The notes beneath the pieces are model-generated. The model saw only the letters and a program-made list of their open reading frames with translations. It made no database searches and was not told where the DNA came from. Shown piece by piece: positions 57,298 through 62,628 of a DNA stretch of 64,000 nt (position 1 is the first letter of the stretch; the number at the start of each line of letters is the position of its first letter). Made by a program: the position numbers and the translations under genes. Source of the stretch: Candidatus Binatia bacterium (GTDB taxonomy: Bacteria; Desulfobacterota; Binatia; HRBIN30; BPIQ01); contig BPIQ01000001.1 in NCBI GenBank assembly GCA_026004195.1, forward strand, positions 983,122 through 1,047,121, in the 5' to 3' direction.

Positions 57298-58266
57298 TCA
57301 GAAGCGCTCGCGAGCCAGGATTTCCGCGATCTGCACCGCGTTGAGTGCCCTGCCCTTCCTCAGGTTGTCCACCGCGACCCAGAGCGCATACGAACGCTCG
57401 CCTTCTTCGCGGAGCCGACTCACCAGGGTGGCTTCGTGCTCGAGCGCCTCGGCCACCGAACTCTCGAGCCCGAGCTCTTCGGTCCAGAGGACACCCGGAG
57501 CCTGACGGAGCACCTCCCGAATCTCGCCGAGCGGCCGATTCTCGGCGAGCTCGACGTGGAGCGAAATTCCCGTCCCGTAGAAAAGAGACCCGTAGGTCCG
57601 CGTGAGGCTCACCGGGAGCTCCGCTTCACCGAGAAGCTTCCGGAGTTGGGCGGCCGCCTCCGATTCCTTTTCGGCTCCTCCCGCCGAGAACGGGACCACG
57701 TTGAAGCAGACCCTGTGGGGGAACACCTCGACCCGCGGCTCCCGGCCGGAGAGGAGGTCCGCCGCCTGCCGTTCCAGCTCCTCGATGCCCTCCCGACCGC
57801 GCTCGGAGACGGGCTCGATCGTCGTCGCCACGACCCGGCGGAGGCCCGCCACGGACCGGACCGGACCCAACACGACGGTGAGCGCCAGGGCGACGGGGTC
57901 CGGAGAAGATACGATACGCCGCGACCCGAGCGCGGCGAGGGCCCCCGGGTTCCACTCCGGCACGACGAGAGGAACGTCCGAGGCCAGAGCGAACCGGCCC
58001 GTGCAATCGACGAAGGCAGCGGCTTCGAAGCGGGAGAAGACGTCTTCCCCGAGCTCGGCGGCGCAGAACACGACGTCGAACTGCCCCCGGGCCTCCTCGA
58101 TGTCCTCGACGATCTCGCCCGTCTCGAAACCCTCGCCCAGGAACTCGCCCCGGTCGAAGAGCCGGAGCTCGCCGAGCGGAAAGCCACGACGGTGGAGACC
58201 CTCGACCACCTCCCGTCCCAGGAGCGTTGCCGCCCCCAGAACGGCGACTCCGAGCCGCTTGGGCAT
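57298..58266 (-). CDS. USG-1-like aspartate-semialdehyde dehydrogenase homologue lacking the catalytic Cys
   Basis: A 322-residue Asd-family protein: LGVAVLGAATLLGREVVEGL, VPLVVPEWNPGALAALG, HRVCFNVVPFSAGG and the closing YALWVAVDNLRKGRALNAVQ. Active Asd enzymes have NPNCS at the nucleophile; here the segment is SSPDPVALALTVV, so the Cys is gone. The later SGAGxxA is SERGREG. That matches E. coli USG-1, which also lies upstream of truA and is not an active dehydrogenase. It overlaps leuB by TGATG, where true asd often sits. It may be a structural or regulatory relic, and the active Asd must be elsewhere. Confidence 0.75.
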   Translation of the reverse strand: MPKRLGVAVLGAATLLGREVVEGLHRRGFPLGELRLFDRGEFLGEGFETGEIVEDIEEARGQFDVVFCAAELGEDVFSRFEAAAFVDCTGRFALASDVPLVVPEWNPGALAALGSRRIVSSPDPVALALTVVLGPVRSVAGLRRVVATTIEPVSERGREGIEELERQAADLLSGREPRVEVFPHRVCFNVVPFSAGGAEKESEAAAQLRKLLGEAELPVSLTRTYGSLFYGTGISLHVELAENRPLGEIREVLRQAPGVLWTEELGLESSVAEALEHEATLVSRLREEGERSYALWVAVDNLRKGRALNAVQIAEILARERF

Positions 58267-59360
58267 CACCCGCCTTCCCGGATCTTCTCGCGGACGAGCC
58301 GACCCATCTCCTTGCAACCCACCACCTCGGCTCCATCCCTGGCGAGGTCCGGCGTGCCGACTCCGGACGCCACGACCTCGTCCACGACGCGTTCCACCGT
58401 CGCCGCGGCTTCCTCGGCGCCGCAGGAATATCGCAGCAGGAGGGCAGCCGAGAGGATCGCGGCGAGCGGGTTGGCCAGGTCCCGGCCGGCGATGTCCGGA
58501 GCGCTGCCATGGATGGGCTCGTAGAGACCCCTCGGCCGGCCGAGCCGATTCCGGGCCTCTCCGAGGGAAGCCGAAGGGAGAAGGCCCATGGAGCCGGCCA
58601 CCATGGAAGCTTCGTCCGTGAGGATATCGCCGAACAGGTTTTCCGTCACGACGACGTCGAAATCCCGGGGACGCCGGAGAAGGTGCATCGCCATGGCATC
58701 GACGAGAACGTGCTCGAGGGTCACGTCGGGGAACTCCCGGCCGACTTCCCCGACGACCTTGCGCCAGAGCCGCGAGGTCGCGAGGATGTTGGCCTTGTCG
58801 ACCGAAGTCACCTTCTTTCGCCTCGATCGCGCGAGCCCGAAGGCGCACCGCGCGACACGCGCGATCTCGGCTTCGGTATAGAAACAGGTGTCGACGGCCT
58901 CTCTTCCACGAGGTCCACCTCGCTCCTCGCTCGGCGCGCCGAAGTAAATCCCACCGGTGAGCTCGCGCACGAAGACGAAATCCGCTCCCGAGACGACGTC
59001 GGGACGCAGCGGGCTCGCCGAGACGAGGCGGGGGTGGACACGCACCGGGCGCAGGTTCGCGAAAAGACCGAGCTCCTTGCGGAGCGCCAGAAGGGCCTGC
59101 TCGGGGCGGACGCTCGCGTTCGGGTCCTCCCACTTGGGGCCACCCACGGCACCGAGAAGAACTCCGTCCGCCTCGAGCGCCGCCCGAAGGACGTCCGCCG
59201 GAAGCGGCGTTCCGTGGAGATCGATCGCCGAACCGCCCACGACCCCCTCTTCGAGCTCCAGCGCGAGCCCGAATCGTTCGGCACAGGCGCGCAGGACGCC
59301 CACGGCTTCGGCGGTCACCTCGGGGCCGATTCCGTCTCCGGGAAGAACCAGGATTTTCAT
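58266..59360 (-). CDS. leuB: 3-isopropylmalate dehydrogenase
   Basis: A 364-residue beta-decarboxylating dehydrogenase of leucine synthesis. [49 protein letters not shown], the catalytic Tyr in [10 protein letters not shown], Lys in [11 protein letters not shown], and [19 protein letters not shown], then [19 protein letters not shown]. It lies eight bases after leuA and overlaps the usg-like gene. No leuC/leuD is present in this window. Confidence 0.97.
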
Positions 59361-59368
59361 GCGGGCTC

Positions 59369-60937
59369 TCAGGGGCCTTCGCCGCGCAGGAGCTGCTGGT
59401 AGCGACGGCGGTACTCGATCTTGTTGAGAGCGGCGACGAGCGCCAGCGCGCTGGCCATCACGATGTCCGTGTGGGCCCCCTGCCCGAGCGCCGAGAGGCC
59501 GTCGACTTCGATCAAGCAGGACACCTCGCCCATCGCGTCGGTGCCACCGGTGATGGCCTTGACCGAGTAGCGTTCGAGCCGGGGCTCGACGCCCACGATC
59601 TCGCAAATGGCCTTGTAGCAGGCGTCCACCATCCCGTCGCCGCTCGCCGATCGCTCGCGCACCTCGCCGTCGACGCGGAGCCGGACCCTGGCCTCGGGCG
59701 TCTCGTCGCTCGCCGCCCGCACCTCGAGCCGCTCGAGCGCGTAGCGTTCCTCGCCCCGGGTGCTCTCTTCGGTCACGATGGCCAGCAGGTCCTCGTCGTA
59801 GACGTTTTTCTTGACGTCCGCGAGTTCCTTGAACCGCTCGAAGGCCTTGTTCATGTCGACGGTCCGCAGGTCGATCCCGAGCTGGCGCAGTCTCTCGACG
59901 AACGCGTGTCGGCCCGAATGCTTGCCGAGCACGATCCGGTTGCTCGCGAGCCCGATGTCCTGCGGGCGCATGATCTCGTACGTGAGCGAATCCTTCAGCA
60001 CCCCGTCCTGATGGATCCCCGCCTCGTGGGCGAAGGCGTTGTCGCCCACTACGGGCTTGTTCACGGGGACCGTGAGACCCGTGATCTGGGAAAGGAGACG
60101 GCTCGTCGCGTAGATGTGCTCGGTCCGGATGTTCGTCCGCACGCCGAAGAAGTCGGAACGCGTCTTCAGTGCCATCACGACCTCTTCCATGGCCGTGTTC
60201 CCCGCCCGCTCCCCGATACCGTTCACGGTGCATTCGACCTGCCGAGCACCGTTGCGGACGGCCGCGAGGGAATTGGCCACGGCCATCCCGAGATCGTTGT
60301 GGCAGTGGGCGCTCCAGCGAACGCTCCTCCCGCCGGGCGTGTGGGTCACGAGATACCGGAAGAGCTCGCCGAACTGCTCCGGCACGGCGTACCCGGTCGT
60401 GTCCGGCACGTTCAGCGTCACGGCGCCGCACTCGATGACGGCCCCGAAAACCTGCACCAGGTACTCGGGATCGCTCCGAGAAGCGTCCTCGGCCGAGAAC
60501 TCGACGTAGTCGAGGTGCTTTCTCGCGAACCGCACCGCCCAGCAGGCGGCGTCGAGCGCCTCCTGCCGGCTCATCATGAGCTTGCGCCGGAGGTGGATGT
60601 CGGAGGTGGCGATGAAAATGTGGATCCCCGGACGGCGCGCCTTTTCCACGGCACGGATCGCCCGCTCGATGTCGCCCTCTTTCGTCCGGGCGAGGCTCAA
60701 GACGATCGGCTCCGTGACCGCTTCCGCCACGCGCCGCACGGCCTCGAAATCGCCCGGCGACGAAGCGGCGAAGCCCGCCTCGATCACGTCGACGCCGAGC
60801 TTCTCGAGCTGTCGTGCGATGACGACCTTTTCTTCGACGTTCATGGTGGCGCCGGGCGACTGTTCGCCGTCGCGCAGCGTCGTGTCGAAGATGTAGACCA
60901 CGTCGTGATCCGCGTCTTTGCCCCGTTCGGGTTGCAT
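59369..60937 (-). CDS. leuA: 2-isopropylmalate synthase
   Basis: A 522-residue enzyme that joins acetyl-CoA to 2-oxoisovalerate, the committed step of leucine synthesis. [56 protein letters not shown] and GKHSGRHAF are diagnostic. The C-terminal ~130 residues are the allosteric leucine-binding domain ([35 protein letters not shown]). The ATG at 60937 has GAGGAGG upstream. Expression is probably attenuated by leucyl-tRNA level through the leader upstream. Confidence 0.97.
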
Positions 60938-60973
60938 CGCCTTGTCCTCCTCGGACGCCAGGGCTTCCAAACG

Positions 60974-61004
60974 AAAAAGGCGGCCACGCCCGTGGCCGCC
61001 TTTT
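60974..61004 (-). terminator. Attenuator terminator upstream of leuA
   Basis: On the minus strand AAAAGGCGGCCACG (61004-60991), GGC loop, CGTGGCCGCCTTTT (60987-60974): a 14-bp GC-rich stem ending in a T-tract, 37 bases before the leuA start codon. This is the strongest intrinsic terminator in the window and would cut off leuA unless an alternative fold forms. Confidence 0.85.
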
Positions 61005-61079
61005 CTCGTGCCGCCACGGGCCGCCCGTCGCCCGTGGCGTCCAGCTCGATTTCGACCGTTACCCTCCGGACGCACACGG
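61005..61079 (-). promoter_or_regulatory. Leucine attenuator pairing segments (pre-emptor, protector, antiterminator)
   Basis: Minus-strand segments: 0 = CCGTG(T)GCGTCC, 61079-61068, inside leader-peptide codons 19-22. 1 = GGACGCCACGGGC, 61042-61030. 2 = GCCCGTGGC, 61021-61013. 3 = GCCACGGGC, 60997-60989, the 5' arm of the terminator. Segment 0 pairs with 1 (11 bp, one bulge), 1 with 2 (9 bp), 2 with 3 (9 bp). Stalling at the Leu codons leaves 0 free, giving 0:1 and 2:3, which blocks the terminator. Translation to the stop codon masks 0, giving 1:2 and the terminator. Confidence 0.75.
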
Positions 61080-61133
61080 GGGACAGGACCCGGCCGAAAG
61101 CAACAAGCCTGCCGTGCGCGCCTTCGGAATCAT
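61059..61133 (-). CDS. leuL: leu operon leader peptide
   Basis: A 24-codon frame: MIPKARTAG, then three consecutive leucines (TTG TTG CTT at 61106-61098), then SAGSCPPCASGG and TAA. TTG and CTT are rare in this GC-rich genome, so low charged tRNA-Leu would stall ribosomes here. The ATG overlaps the pssA stop (ATGA), and AAGGGTGG lies upstream. The position before a terminator hairpin and leuA, with the pairing segments, makes a transcription-attenuation leader the best reading. Confidence 0.75.
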   Translation of the reverse strand: MIPKARTAGLLLSAGSCPPCASGG

Positions 61134-61960
61134 TGCCCACCCTTACTAGGGGTCCAGAGCGACCTTGTCAAGACATCGGCCCCGACCGACCGCCGGAACC
61201 AGAGCCGCTCGAGGCGGCGGAGCTTCACGTACGCCCACCGCCCCGGGCCGTAGAGGGCGTAGCTGTAAGCGGCCACGAAGAGGAAAATCTGCGGTTCCGC
61301 CACGAGGAAGTTGCCGAGAAGAATGACGGCGAGAAGAATCCAGAAGGGCTGTCGCCGGTAGAGCTCGACCTCCTTGAAGCTGTAGTAACGCACCCCGCTC
61401 ACCATGAGGCCGGCCAGCACGTAGGTGAGGACCAGGAAAACCAGGTGCCGGTTCGCCACGACCTCGCCGCCCAGGTAATGGCCCAGAAGCACGGTCGTCA
61501 CGACGACGTCGGCGGCGGCCGGAATCGGCAAGCCGACGAAGTGGCGTTTCTCCACGTTGTCCCACTGCACGTTGAAACGGGCGAGGCGAAGAGCGCCGCA
61601 GGTCACGTAGAGGGCCGCCGCCAGCCAACCCCACGTCTTCCACGGCAGCAGCGCCCACTGGTAGACCAGCAACGCCGGCGCCACCCCGAAGGCCACGAGG
61701 TCGGAAAGAGAGTCGTACTCGATCCCGAACCGACTCGCCGTCCGCGTGACGCGCGCTACGCGCCCGTCCAGGACATCGAAGACCTGTGCGACGAGAACGG
61801 CGACGGCCGCGACCTCGAACTCCCCCCGAAGCGTCGCGACGACGGAGAAAAAGCCGGAGAAGAGACCGGCCGTGGTGAGCAGATTCGGGAGCACGTGGAC
61901 GCCCTTTCGAAGAGGCGCGCGCAGGTCCCGCGCGCGGATCGTGTGAACCCCGCCGTTCAC
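61130..61960 (-). CDS. pssA: CDP-diacylglycerol--serine O-phosphatidyltransferase
   Basis: A 276-residue membrane enzyme that makes phosphatidylserine. The CDP-alcohol phosphatidyltransferase motif DGx2ARx8Gx3Dx3D is seen as DGRVARVTRTASRFGIEYDS (then LSD), preceded by PNLLTTAGLFSGFFSVV and followed by several helices. I chose the GTG at 61960, which overlaps the psd stop (GTGA). The stop overlaps the leu leader start. ilvC-psd-pssA-leuA is a conserved order in many bacteria. Confidence 0.95.
   Translation of the reverse strand: MNGGVHTIRARDLRAPLRKGVHVLPNLLTTAGLFSGFFSVVATLRGEFEVAAVAVLVAQVFDVLDGRVARVTRTASRFGIEYDSLSDLVAFGVAPALLVYQWALLPWKTWGWLAAALYVTCGALRLARFNVQWDNVEKRHFVGLPIPAAADVVVTTVLLGHYLGGEVVANRHLVFLVLTYVLAGLMVSGVRYYSFKEVELYRRQPFWILLAVILLGNFLVAEPQIFLFVAAYSYALYGPGRWAYVKLRRLERLWFRRSVGADVLTRSLWTPSKGGQ
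61143..61171 (-). promoter_or_regulatory. Internal promoter for the leu leader/leuA
   Basis: On the minus strand: a perfect TTGACA (61171-61166), exactly 17 bp, then TAGTAA (61148-61143), all within the 3' end of pssA. Transcription would begin near 61136, about three bases before the leader-peptide ATG. The -10 is only a partial match. Confidence 0.5.
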
Positions 61961-62628
61961 GAGCCCGCCTCCGCGATCACGCTTTCCCCCGCCCGCGTCC
62001 GGTCCCCCGGACGAACACGGACCCGGAACCCCGGCGGAAGGTAGACGTCCACCCTGGACCCGAACATGACGATCCCGCACCGGGCACCCCGGTCGATTTC
62101 CATGCCCTCCCGCACATAGCACACGATTCGCCGGGCGAGAAACCCGGCGACTTGCACGAAACAGATCCCGGGCCCCTGGGGGGTCCGCAGCCAGACGGCG
62201 TTGCGCTCGTTTTCCTCCGAAGCTTCCGGGGCGAAAGCCCGCACGAACCGCCCCTTCCGGTACTCGGTTTTTTCCACGCGTCCCGAGGCGGGGGCCCGGT
62301 TCACGTGGACGTCGAAGGGCGACATGAAAATGCTGAGCCTCGTGCCCCCCTCCGGCAAATACCGGTCGTCCGCCGAAGCCTCGACGGCGATCACCCGGCC
62401 GTCCGCGGGAGCCACGAGGAGGTGTTCCCCTTCCGGAGGAGTCCGCTCGGGGTCGCGGAAAAACCAGAGGAGGTAGAGAGAAGCCAAGCCGAAAAGACAC
62501 GCCGGCGCACGCAGGCCGAAGACCCACGACAGGAACGCGGCCCCCAGGCCGGCGGCGACCAGGGGAAAGCCTTCCCGGGCCAGCGGGAGTCCTTTTTTCT
62601 TCGCAGGCGAAGAGAGGTCCGCCTCCAC
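61957..62628 (-). CDS. psd: Phosphatidylserine decarboxylase, small soluble-type proenzyme
   Basis: A 223-residue PSD-A type enzyme that makes phosphatidylethanolamine. FFRDPERTPPEGEHLLVAPA, IFMSPFDVHVNRAPASGRVE and GIVMFGSRVDVYLPP are the family motifs; self-cleavage between Gly and Ser in MFGSR creates the pyruvoyl cofactor. A hydrophobic N-terminal segment (LVAAGLGAAFLSWVFGLRA) anchors it. It starts at GTG 16 bp after ilvC and overlaps pssA. Confidence 0.95.
   Translation of the reverse strand: MEADLSSPAKKKGLPLAREGFPLVAAGLGAAFLSWVFGLRAPACLFGLASLYLLWFFRDPERTPPEGEHLLVAPADGRVIAVEASADDRYLPEGGTRLSIFMSPFDVHVNRAPASGRVEKTEYRKGRFVRAFAPEASEENERNAVWLRTPQGPGICFVQVAGFLARRIVCYVREGMEIDRGARCGIVMFGSRVDVYLPPGFRVRVRPGDRTRAGESVIAEAGS

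Follow-up and report, generated by a model that had tools for sequence, protein, structure and literature searches.

The 64,000-nucleotide stretch analyzed here, called the window throughout, comes from Candidatus Binatia bacterium (assembly GCA_026004195.1, contig BPIQ01000001.1, positions 983,122 to 1,047,121 of the forward strand). Between pssA and leuA, on the minus strand, it holds a short leader region in which a Leu-rich open reading frame (ORF) is followed by tandem hairpins. We read this region, with a probability of about 0.88, as a ribosome-mediated transcription attenuator that would sense charged leucyl-tRNA and control leuA-leuB. By NCBIfam models, the gene set of the region comprises ilvC, psd, pssA, leuA, and leuB, together with a weaker assignment of asd with scores under the model cut-offs; pssA proper is probably only the later part of the ORF given for it below. 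The pairing segments are lettered A to F, after the naming used for the his attenuator, and the features are as follows.

61130..62527, minus strand: ORF containing pssA, upstream of the leader (NCBIfam TIGR00473, 141.4 bits, cut-off 107, residues 220-381)
61143..61171, minus strand: putative promoter within the pssA 3' end (-35 TTGACA at 61171-61166, 17-bp spacer, weak -10 TAGTAA at 61148-61143)
61059..61133, minus strand: leader peptide ORF, MIPKARTAGLLLSAGSCPPCASGG*, 24 codons, its start overlapping the pssA stop (ATGA)
61107..61122, minus strand: segment A, which can pair with B and would lie beneath a ribosome stalled at the Leu codons
61098..61106, minus strand: putative regulatory codons TTG TTG CTT (Leu-Leu-Leu), by direct reading
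61064..61090, minus strand: segment B (earlier segment 0, core 61079-61068), inside the peptide ORF
61028..61048, minus strand: segment C (earlier segment 1), core GCCACGGGC at 61038-61030
61012..61021, minus strand: segment D (earlier segment 2), core GCCCGTGGC at 61021-61013, with C or E as partner
60988..61005, minus strand: segment E (earlier segment 3), terminator 5' arm at 61005-60992; its copy of GCCACGGGC at 60996-60988 pairs with D
60969..60987, minus strand: segment F, terminator 3' arm at 60987-60974 plus T tract at 60978-60969
59369..60937, minus strand: leuA (2-isopropylmalate synthase), the gene presumed to be controlled (NCBIfam TIGR00973, 690.7 bits, cut-off 598.7)
58266-59372: leuB, downstream of leuA (NCBIfam TIGR00169, 493.8 bits, cut-off 353.2)

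The 24-codon frame with a Leu-Leu-Leu run, which an earlier sequence-only reading of this DNA had described, is read at 61133-61059 as ATG ATT CCG AAG GCG CGC ACG GCA GGC TTG TTG CTT TCG GCC GGG TCC TGT CCC CCG TGT GCG TCC GGA GGG TAA, with the Leu codons at 61106-61098; the overlap of the pssA stop codon with its start codon falls at 61133-61130. Downstream, 61005-60992 pairs with 60987-60974 across a GGGC loop, and the 14 pairs (a 9-pair G+C-rich core, four A-U pairs, and one G-U pair) confirm the 14-bp terminator stem with T tract that had been reported. The T tract, TTTTTCGTTT, occupies 60978-60969; the terminator is thus where it had been placed, but release of the transcript is expected nearer 60972-60969 than the 60974 given earlier. 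Upstream of the terminator, the segments can form either A:B, C:D, and E:F, which are the three hairpins of the full-leader fold, or the alternative pairs B:C and D:E. The B:C duplex joins approximately 61090-61064 with 61048-61030 and encloses the core 61079-61068, the C:D core joins 61038-61030 with 61021-61013, and the D:E core joins 61021-61013 with 60996-60988. The same nine-base segment is present twice, in C and in E, and D therefore has two almost equal partners.

All four pairings of the sequence-only reading (0:1, 1:2, 2:3, and 3 with the terminator arm) exist, and segment 0 does lie inside the peptide, since segment B (61064..61090) falls within the leader ORF; however, 0:1 is longer than described, the core of 1:2 is 61038-61030, and the partner given for 2:3 (60997-60989) was off by one. 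The segments number six rather than five: in the full-length fold, segment 0 is itself paired with a further segment, A (61122-61107). That reading also lacked the ATGA overlap and, at 61171-61166, the TTGACA box. In 2,000 dinucleotide shuffles of 61058-60969, a perfect 9-bp stem arose 87 times and two arm-sharing stems never (0/2000); the real sequence has a chain of three 9-bp stems. The folding z score of the whole leader was -2.7, with 2 of 200 shuffles equally stable. When codon order was shuffled, the fraction as strong as the real sequence was 0.01 for A of the window and 0.00 of 200 for B paired with C.

The leader is conserved through much of the class. A first set of 88 distinct leuA upstream regions (7 duplicates dropped) had a TTGAC box 28-50 nt ahead of a Leu-rich ORF in 56 cases, and L085, with the box ~60 nt from the leader, was added by eye to give 57. 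In 50 of these 56 loci, 34-41 nt separate TTGAC from ATG, a spacing that fits a 5' untranslated region of a few bases at most. In the window, the leader ATG lies 9 nt past the presumed -10 box, the expected RNA start being at ~61136, and the leader transcript is therefore probably leaderless, starting at or a few bases from the AUG. Among 39 loci with pssA found upstream, the pssA stop overlaps the leader start as ATGA in 6, the window included (the others are L022, L026, L081, L088, and L095), lies 8-12 nt before the leader ATG in 9, and lies at least 24 nt away in the other 24; in L012-L017, the pssA stop TAA forms part of the presumed -10 box (TATAA). Given the overlap at the window's pssA stop, reinitiation by ribosomes leaving pssA is a second possible route by which the window leader may be translated.

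A census of 148 class genomes, many of them overlapping the first set, yielded 132 with leuA (118 upstream regions fetched plus 14 from the window's own order); the comparison begins at the order level, the window's genome being the sole member of its genus and family compared. A strict scan for TTGAC placed 33-42 nt before an ORF of 15-45 codons with a Leu run found promoter and Leu-rich leader in 78 of the 132, against 0 on reverse complements and 0, 1, 1, 0, and 1 in five mononucleotide shuffles. Thirteen more were recognized by eye (G005, G007, G013, G032, G219, G220, G242, G249, G270, G279, G280, G281, and G298), several of them without the promoter spacing, G270 being cut at a contig end and G298 being the weakest, with few Leu codons; the total is 91 of 132. 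Every one of the 14 leuA-bearing genomes of the window's order has the leader, 11 recognized by the scan and 3 by eye. CTT is the final codon of the last Leu run in 60 of the 78 leaders that the scan found, and CTT accounts for 140 of 553 Leu codons in leaders versus 102 of 2342 in leuA genes (those readable by script from the loci of the leuA search); in five window genes, TTG and CTT make up 5 and 18 of 144 Leu codons. In one locus (L096, G013:C8), the attenuator stands before a leuA-like paralogue in tandem ahead of leuA, 54% identical to the query over residues 10-287.

The pairings were evaluated on 25 of the 57 leaders; the 32 left out comprise 26 with a single terminator hairpin of other sequence (f7 type), 5 of the f87 type, and L058. 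The B:C duplexes average -30.8 kcal/mol versus -24.9 kcal/mol for between-group swaps, and every one of the 25 leaders has a B:C pairing of its own that outdoes the mean swap. When the codon order of B is shuffled, the real value is matched in at most 5% of shuffles for 24 of the 25. For D:E, 85.7% of cells are paired versus 38-43% in slid versions, and the covariation score is 0.343 versus 0.08-0.17 slid and is reached by 0 of 500 shuffles; the changing positions include loop bases used by neither C:D nor E:F. For C:D, 86.6% of cells are paired versus 39-49% slid. After L003, L004, and L085 were set aside for their decayed second hairpin, the consensus fold of the remaining 22 rows shows compensatory change in 7 of 18 pairs, five in E:F and two in C:D, with E:F columns such as C-G 14/U-A 7 and G-C 11/A-U 9; the window's F arm is gapped in these columns and uncounted. 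Alignment of relatives for a conserved Leu run and covariation, the check proposed by the sequence-only reading, thus came out favorably, with the exception of weak covariation in C:D, and leader-peptide attenuation of leuA, as first suggested there, is the best reading of the scan and by-eye counts, of the B:C comparison, and of the covariation in D:E and E:F.

Under this reading, transcription would start at the promoter in the pssA end, at or a few bases from the leader AUG, and a ribosome would translate the leader while the RNA emerges. With leucine plentiful, the ribosome would reach the stop codon and cover B, so that C:D and E:F could form and the polymerase would halt before leuA. With leucine scarce, it would stall at TTG TTG CTT over segment A, leaving B free to pair with C; the leftover D would then pair with E before F is made, no terminator would form in time, and leuA would be transcribed. 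If the leader were not translated, A:B would form first, then C:D and E:F, giving termination as the presumed default.

Several results weigh against this reading. The -10 box of the window is poor, agreeing with the consensus at 3 of 6 positions, and a simple promoter scan did not list the TTGACA/TAGTAA promoter. The 25 aligned leaders were picked by eye for the tandem-hairpin layout. Covariation in C:D is weak, its score being reached by 51 of 500 shuffles; D:E has 18 cells changed on both sides in the real register versus 21 in the +1 slid version; and the mean swap is beaten in only 19 of 25 for D:E and 20 of 25 for C:D. For A:B, 18 of 25 leaders do better than the mean swap, and 8 of 25 (one of them the window) have a fraction of 0.05 or less when codon order is shuffled. 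In the census, 36 of 132 genomes have no leader (21 in family f8, 1 in f88, 9 in f89, and 5 in f90), and a further 5 (G286-G290 of f87) have neither leader nor other hairpin. The folds point both ways. When each aligned leader was folded from the ribosome edge to the end of E (threshold 0.5), a stall at the first codon of the last Leu run put D:E above the threshold in 24 of 25 leaders, versus 9 of 25 (one of them the window) for a ribosome at the stop codon, a difference in favor of the switch. Against it, D:E passed the threshold in only 16 of 25 for a stall at the last Leu codon and in 17 of 25 without a ribosome. The corresponding counts for C:D were 0, 15, 8, and 7 of 25. At equilibrium with the polymerase just before F, the window favors D:E whether the ribosome is stalled, at the stop codon, or absent, and at full length E:F wins in every ribosome state tried, the stalled one included.

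Attenuators in general depend on the order of folding. Equilibrium folds alone do not prove the window switch; since they do not discriminate between ribosome states, the switch would have to come from the order in which the segments fold. In the stop-codon state, C:D of the window forms before E is made, and D:E is favored once E is complete. Without a ribosome, the full-length window gives a probability of 0.96 for A:B and 1.00 for E:F, and with the polymerase just before F it prefers B:C plus D:E, with a probability of 0.00 for A:B; termination in the absence of translation would therefore likewise rest on folding order. The fold states and the A:B shuffle tests do not establish termination by default as a conserved rule.

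Alternatively, the hairpins could be one or more ordinary intergenic terminators that end an ilv-psd-pssA unit, the ORF being accidental and leuA being transcribed from its own promoter without leucine control. Tandem hairpins are indeed widespread, as a covariance model of segments C to F (R1) matches 97 of 198 genomes of the wider phylum and hits another site of the window's own genome below 1e-3; in addition, four families (36 genomes) have a hairpin but lack the leader. This explanation nevertheless appears improbable to us, because a Leu-rich ORF stands in 91 of 132 genomes, 78 of them by a scan that demanded the promoter spacing, because B within the ORF pairs with C beyond swaps in every aligned leader, and because D:E covaries at loop positions that neither hairpin needs. 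A leader that regulates leuA without termination, in the manner suggested for the actinobacterial LEU element (e.g., by translational coupling, a regulatory protein, or a pseudoknot), seems more improbable still. In its favor, PMC1262725 presents actinobacterial leuA leaders as having no other attenuator parts and cites Streptomyces coelicolor mutants as misfitting classical attenuation. In the window, however, a strong stem and T tract precede leuA, and the corresponding arms show covariation among relatives. PMC8079986, by comparison, describes the leuA leader of Streptomyces lividans as having no typical terminator.

We give the least credence, and very little of it, to a ribosome halted by the nascent peptide or by a Pro-Pro pair after the Leu run (CPP, IPP), in which case the switch would respond to something other than the leucine supply. 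Within groups, the peptides do end alike (e.g., PPGASAGT and IPPEGSEGG), but this likeness is explained by pairing, because the Pro codons sit in the B stretch that pairs with C. Furthermore, 37 listed f7 leaders have no Pro-Pro and a different ending and yet keep the Leu run, and that run is enriched for the rare codon CTT. The attenuator reading thus remains preferred over all three explanations.

An adjacent pssA and leuA with no Leu-rich frame between them, which the sequence-only reading had named as evidence against an attenuator, does occur in those 36 genomes and is confined to families f8, f88, f89, and f90. There, a hairpin of the CTCCCG...CGGGAG type with a T tract lies in the last 200 nt before leuA in 35 of 36 genomes versus 0 of 96 elsewhere. 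Typically, it reads CTCCCGTTGGC...GCCGCGGGAG-TTTTT (e.g., L018, L019, and L021), and it starts 30-38 nt past the pssA stop in the 27 genomes with a reliable pssA frame (G328, G334, G335, and six of f89 were excluded). We read these lineages as having replaced the leader by another hairpin, because the leader is present in all the leuA-bearing genomes of the window's order. Pairing of this hairpin with the pssA tail, which would turn pssA itself into an attenuator, was considered and is so far unsupported: the fraction under synonymous recoding was 0.05 or less in 6 of 27, with a mean of 0.27. In genus g4 (L003, L004, and L085), the T tract follows hairpin C:D, and the terminator has therefore moved between hairpin 1 and hairpin 2. 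It is conceivable, though we consider it rather unlikely, that the leuA leader of the class was rebuilt repeatedly on one logic, as a leaderless attenuator of duplicated, interchangeable hairpins with the terminator at hairpin 1 or 2 by lineage, and that four families replaced it by an unrelated conserved hairpin ~30-38 nt past the pssA stop; this hairpin may be an attenuator reading the Leu-rich pssA end in place of a leader peptide of its own.

As a search tool, R1 was rejected as unspecific, given its matches across the wider phylum; one of its two own-genome hits below 1e-3 is the site itself. Among the matches listed, at least 5 belong to other families and stand ahead of leuA by ~30-235 nt (G072, G201, G081, G052, and G121); each of these five loci (L151-L155) shows a short Leu-rich ORF that directly precedes or abuts the hairpins, the ORF of L151 starting ~430 nt before leuA. 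One of seven comparison leuA upstream regions has such an ORF (L157, of the same genus as L152), the twelve loci being without a shuffle control. The Leu-rich ORFs before the hairpins of L151-L155 and L157 therefore suggest that the element or its like extends beyond the class. Tandem GGCCATGGG-type hairpins are present in L154 and L155.

The leuL attenuator of the enteric leu operon stands before leuA and has leucine codons, rare ones included, alternative structures, and an intrinsic terminator. The window element resembles it in these respects, whereas no match to its sequence or structure was found in the window; Rfam release 15 gave no family at gathering score in the window, and the 10 weak matches listed for 60900-61300 (E up to 5) include no amino-acid leader. 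The sequence-only reading had taken the enteric leu operons as its precedent, and the type of switch is indeed known from them, but the nearest published analogues found for the probably leaderless start are the leaderless leuL leaders of Streptomyces (PMC8079986). In PMC1183508, the enteric leu operon attenuator is mentioned, and the his operon attenuator of Escherichia coli and Salmonella likewise has a codon-run leader ORF, a first hairpin, an extra middle hairpin, and a terminator; the middle one is suggested there to reduce basal readthrough. Compared with the his operon, the Binatia element has leucine codons, is probably leaderless, has near-identical repeats in C and E, and in g4 has the T tract after C:D.

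In Streptomyces lividans, short leuL leaders with a Leu run and leaderless transcription precede leuA and leuS, and the one before leuS (leuL2) has a hairpin and a uridine stretch, according to PMC8079986, in which the leuA leader is the one described as having no typical terminator; the Binatia element, in contrast, has a hairpin chain with a strong terminator, while the short leader with a Leu run is shared, as its leaderless start would probably be. The LEU element of Actinobacteria likewise places a conserved leader ORF containing Leu codons ahead of leuA, and a pseudoknot whose base stem covers the Shine-Dalgarno box has been proposed for it; PMC1262725 describes Actinobacteria as missing the other attenuator elements, whereas the window has a terminator between leader and leuA.

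Among the papers listed in literature searches, no description of such an attenuator was found for Binatota/Binatia, Desulfobacterota, Deltaproteobacteria, or Geobacter, which is weak evidence of absence because the subscription literature was thinly covered; a term search of the main text of the Binatota genome paper (PMC8262859) found none of the terms leader peptide, attenuation, and leucine. This kind of switch is already known, and what we add is its conservation through this class, for which no earlier description was found. Leader-peptide attenuation, known in Proteobacteria and Actinobacteria and subsequently reported in Firmicutes too (PMC2965389), would be extended to the candidate phylum Candidatus Binatota (Binatia). 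The leaders conserved in 91 of 132 genomes supply a new testable alignment for cotranscriptional folding, and the class may offer a natural case in which one conserved leader element was exchanged for another before the same gene.

Within 14 kb around and upstream of the window's own leuA (L111), the scan with promoter spacing returned the attenuator and one ORF without a Leu run. The own genome also has trpE, and a simple scan of two loci found no Trp-run leader. A second LeuA relative in it, 31% identical (G000:C1:341495-343054), is perhaps a citramalate synthase. The closest named leuA records (78% identity) belong to Bacterium HR30 and to a Candidatus Binatia bin, on which ground the window's genome is presumed to belong to Candidatus Binatota, class Binatia. 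Records titled Klebsiella pneumoniae (L009 and L076) and Uhrbacteria (L058) have a leuA 66-72% identical to that of the window and are probably mislabelled bins; L009 and L058 also carry the Leu leader.
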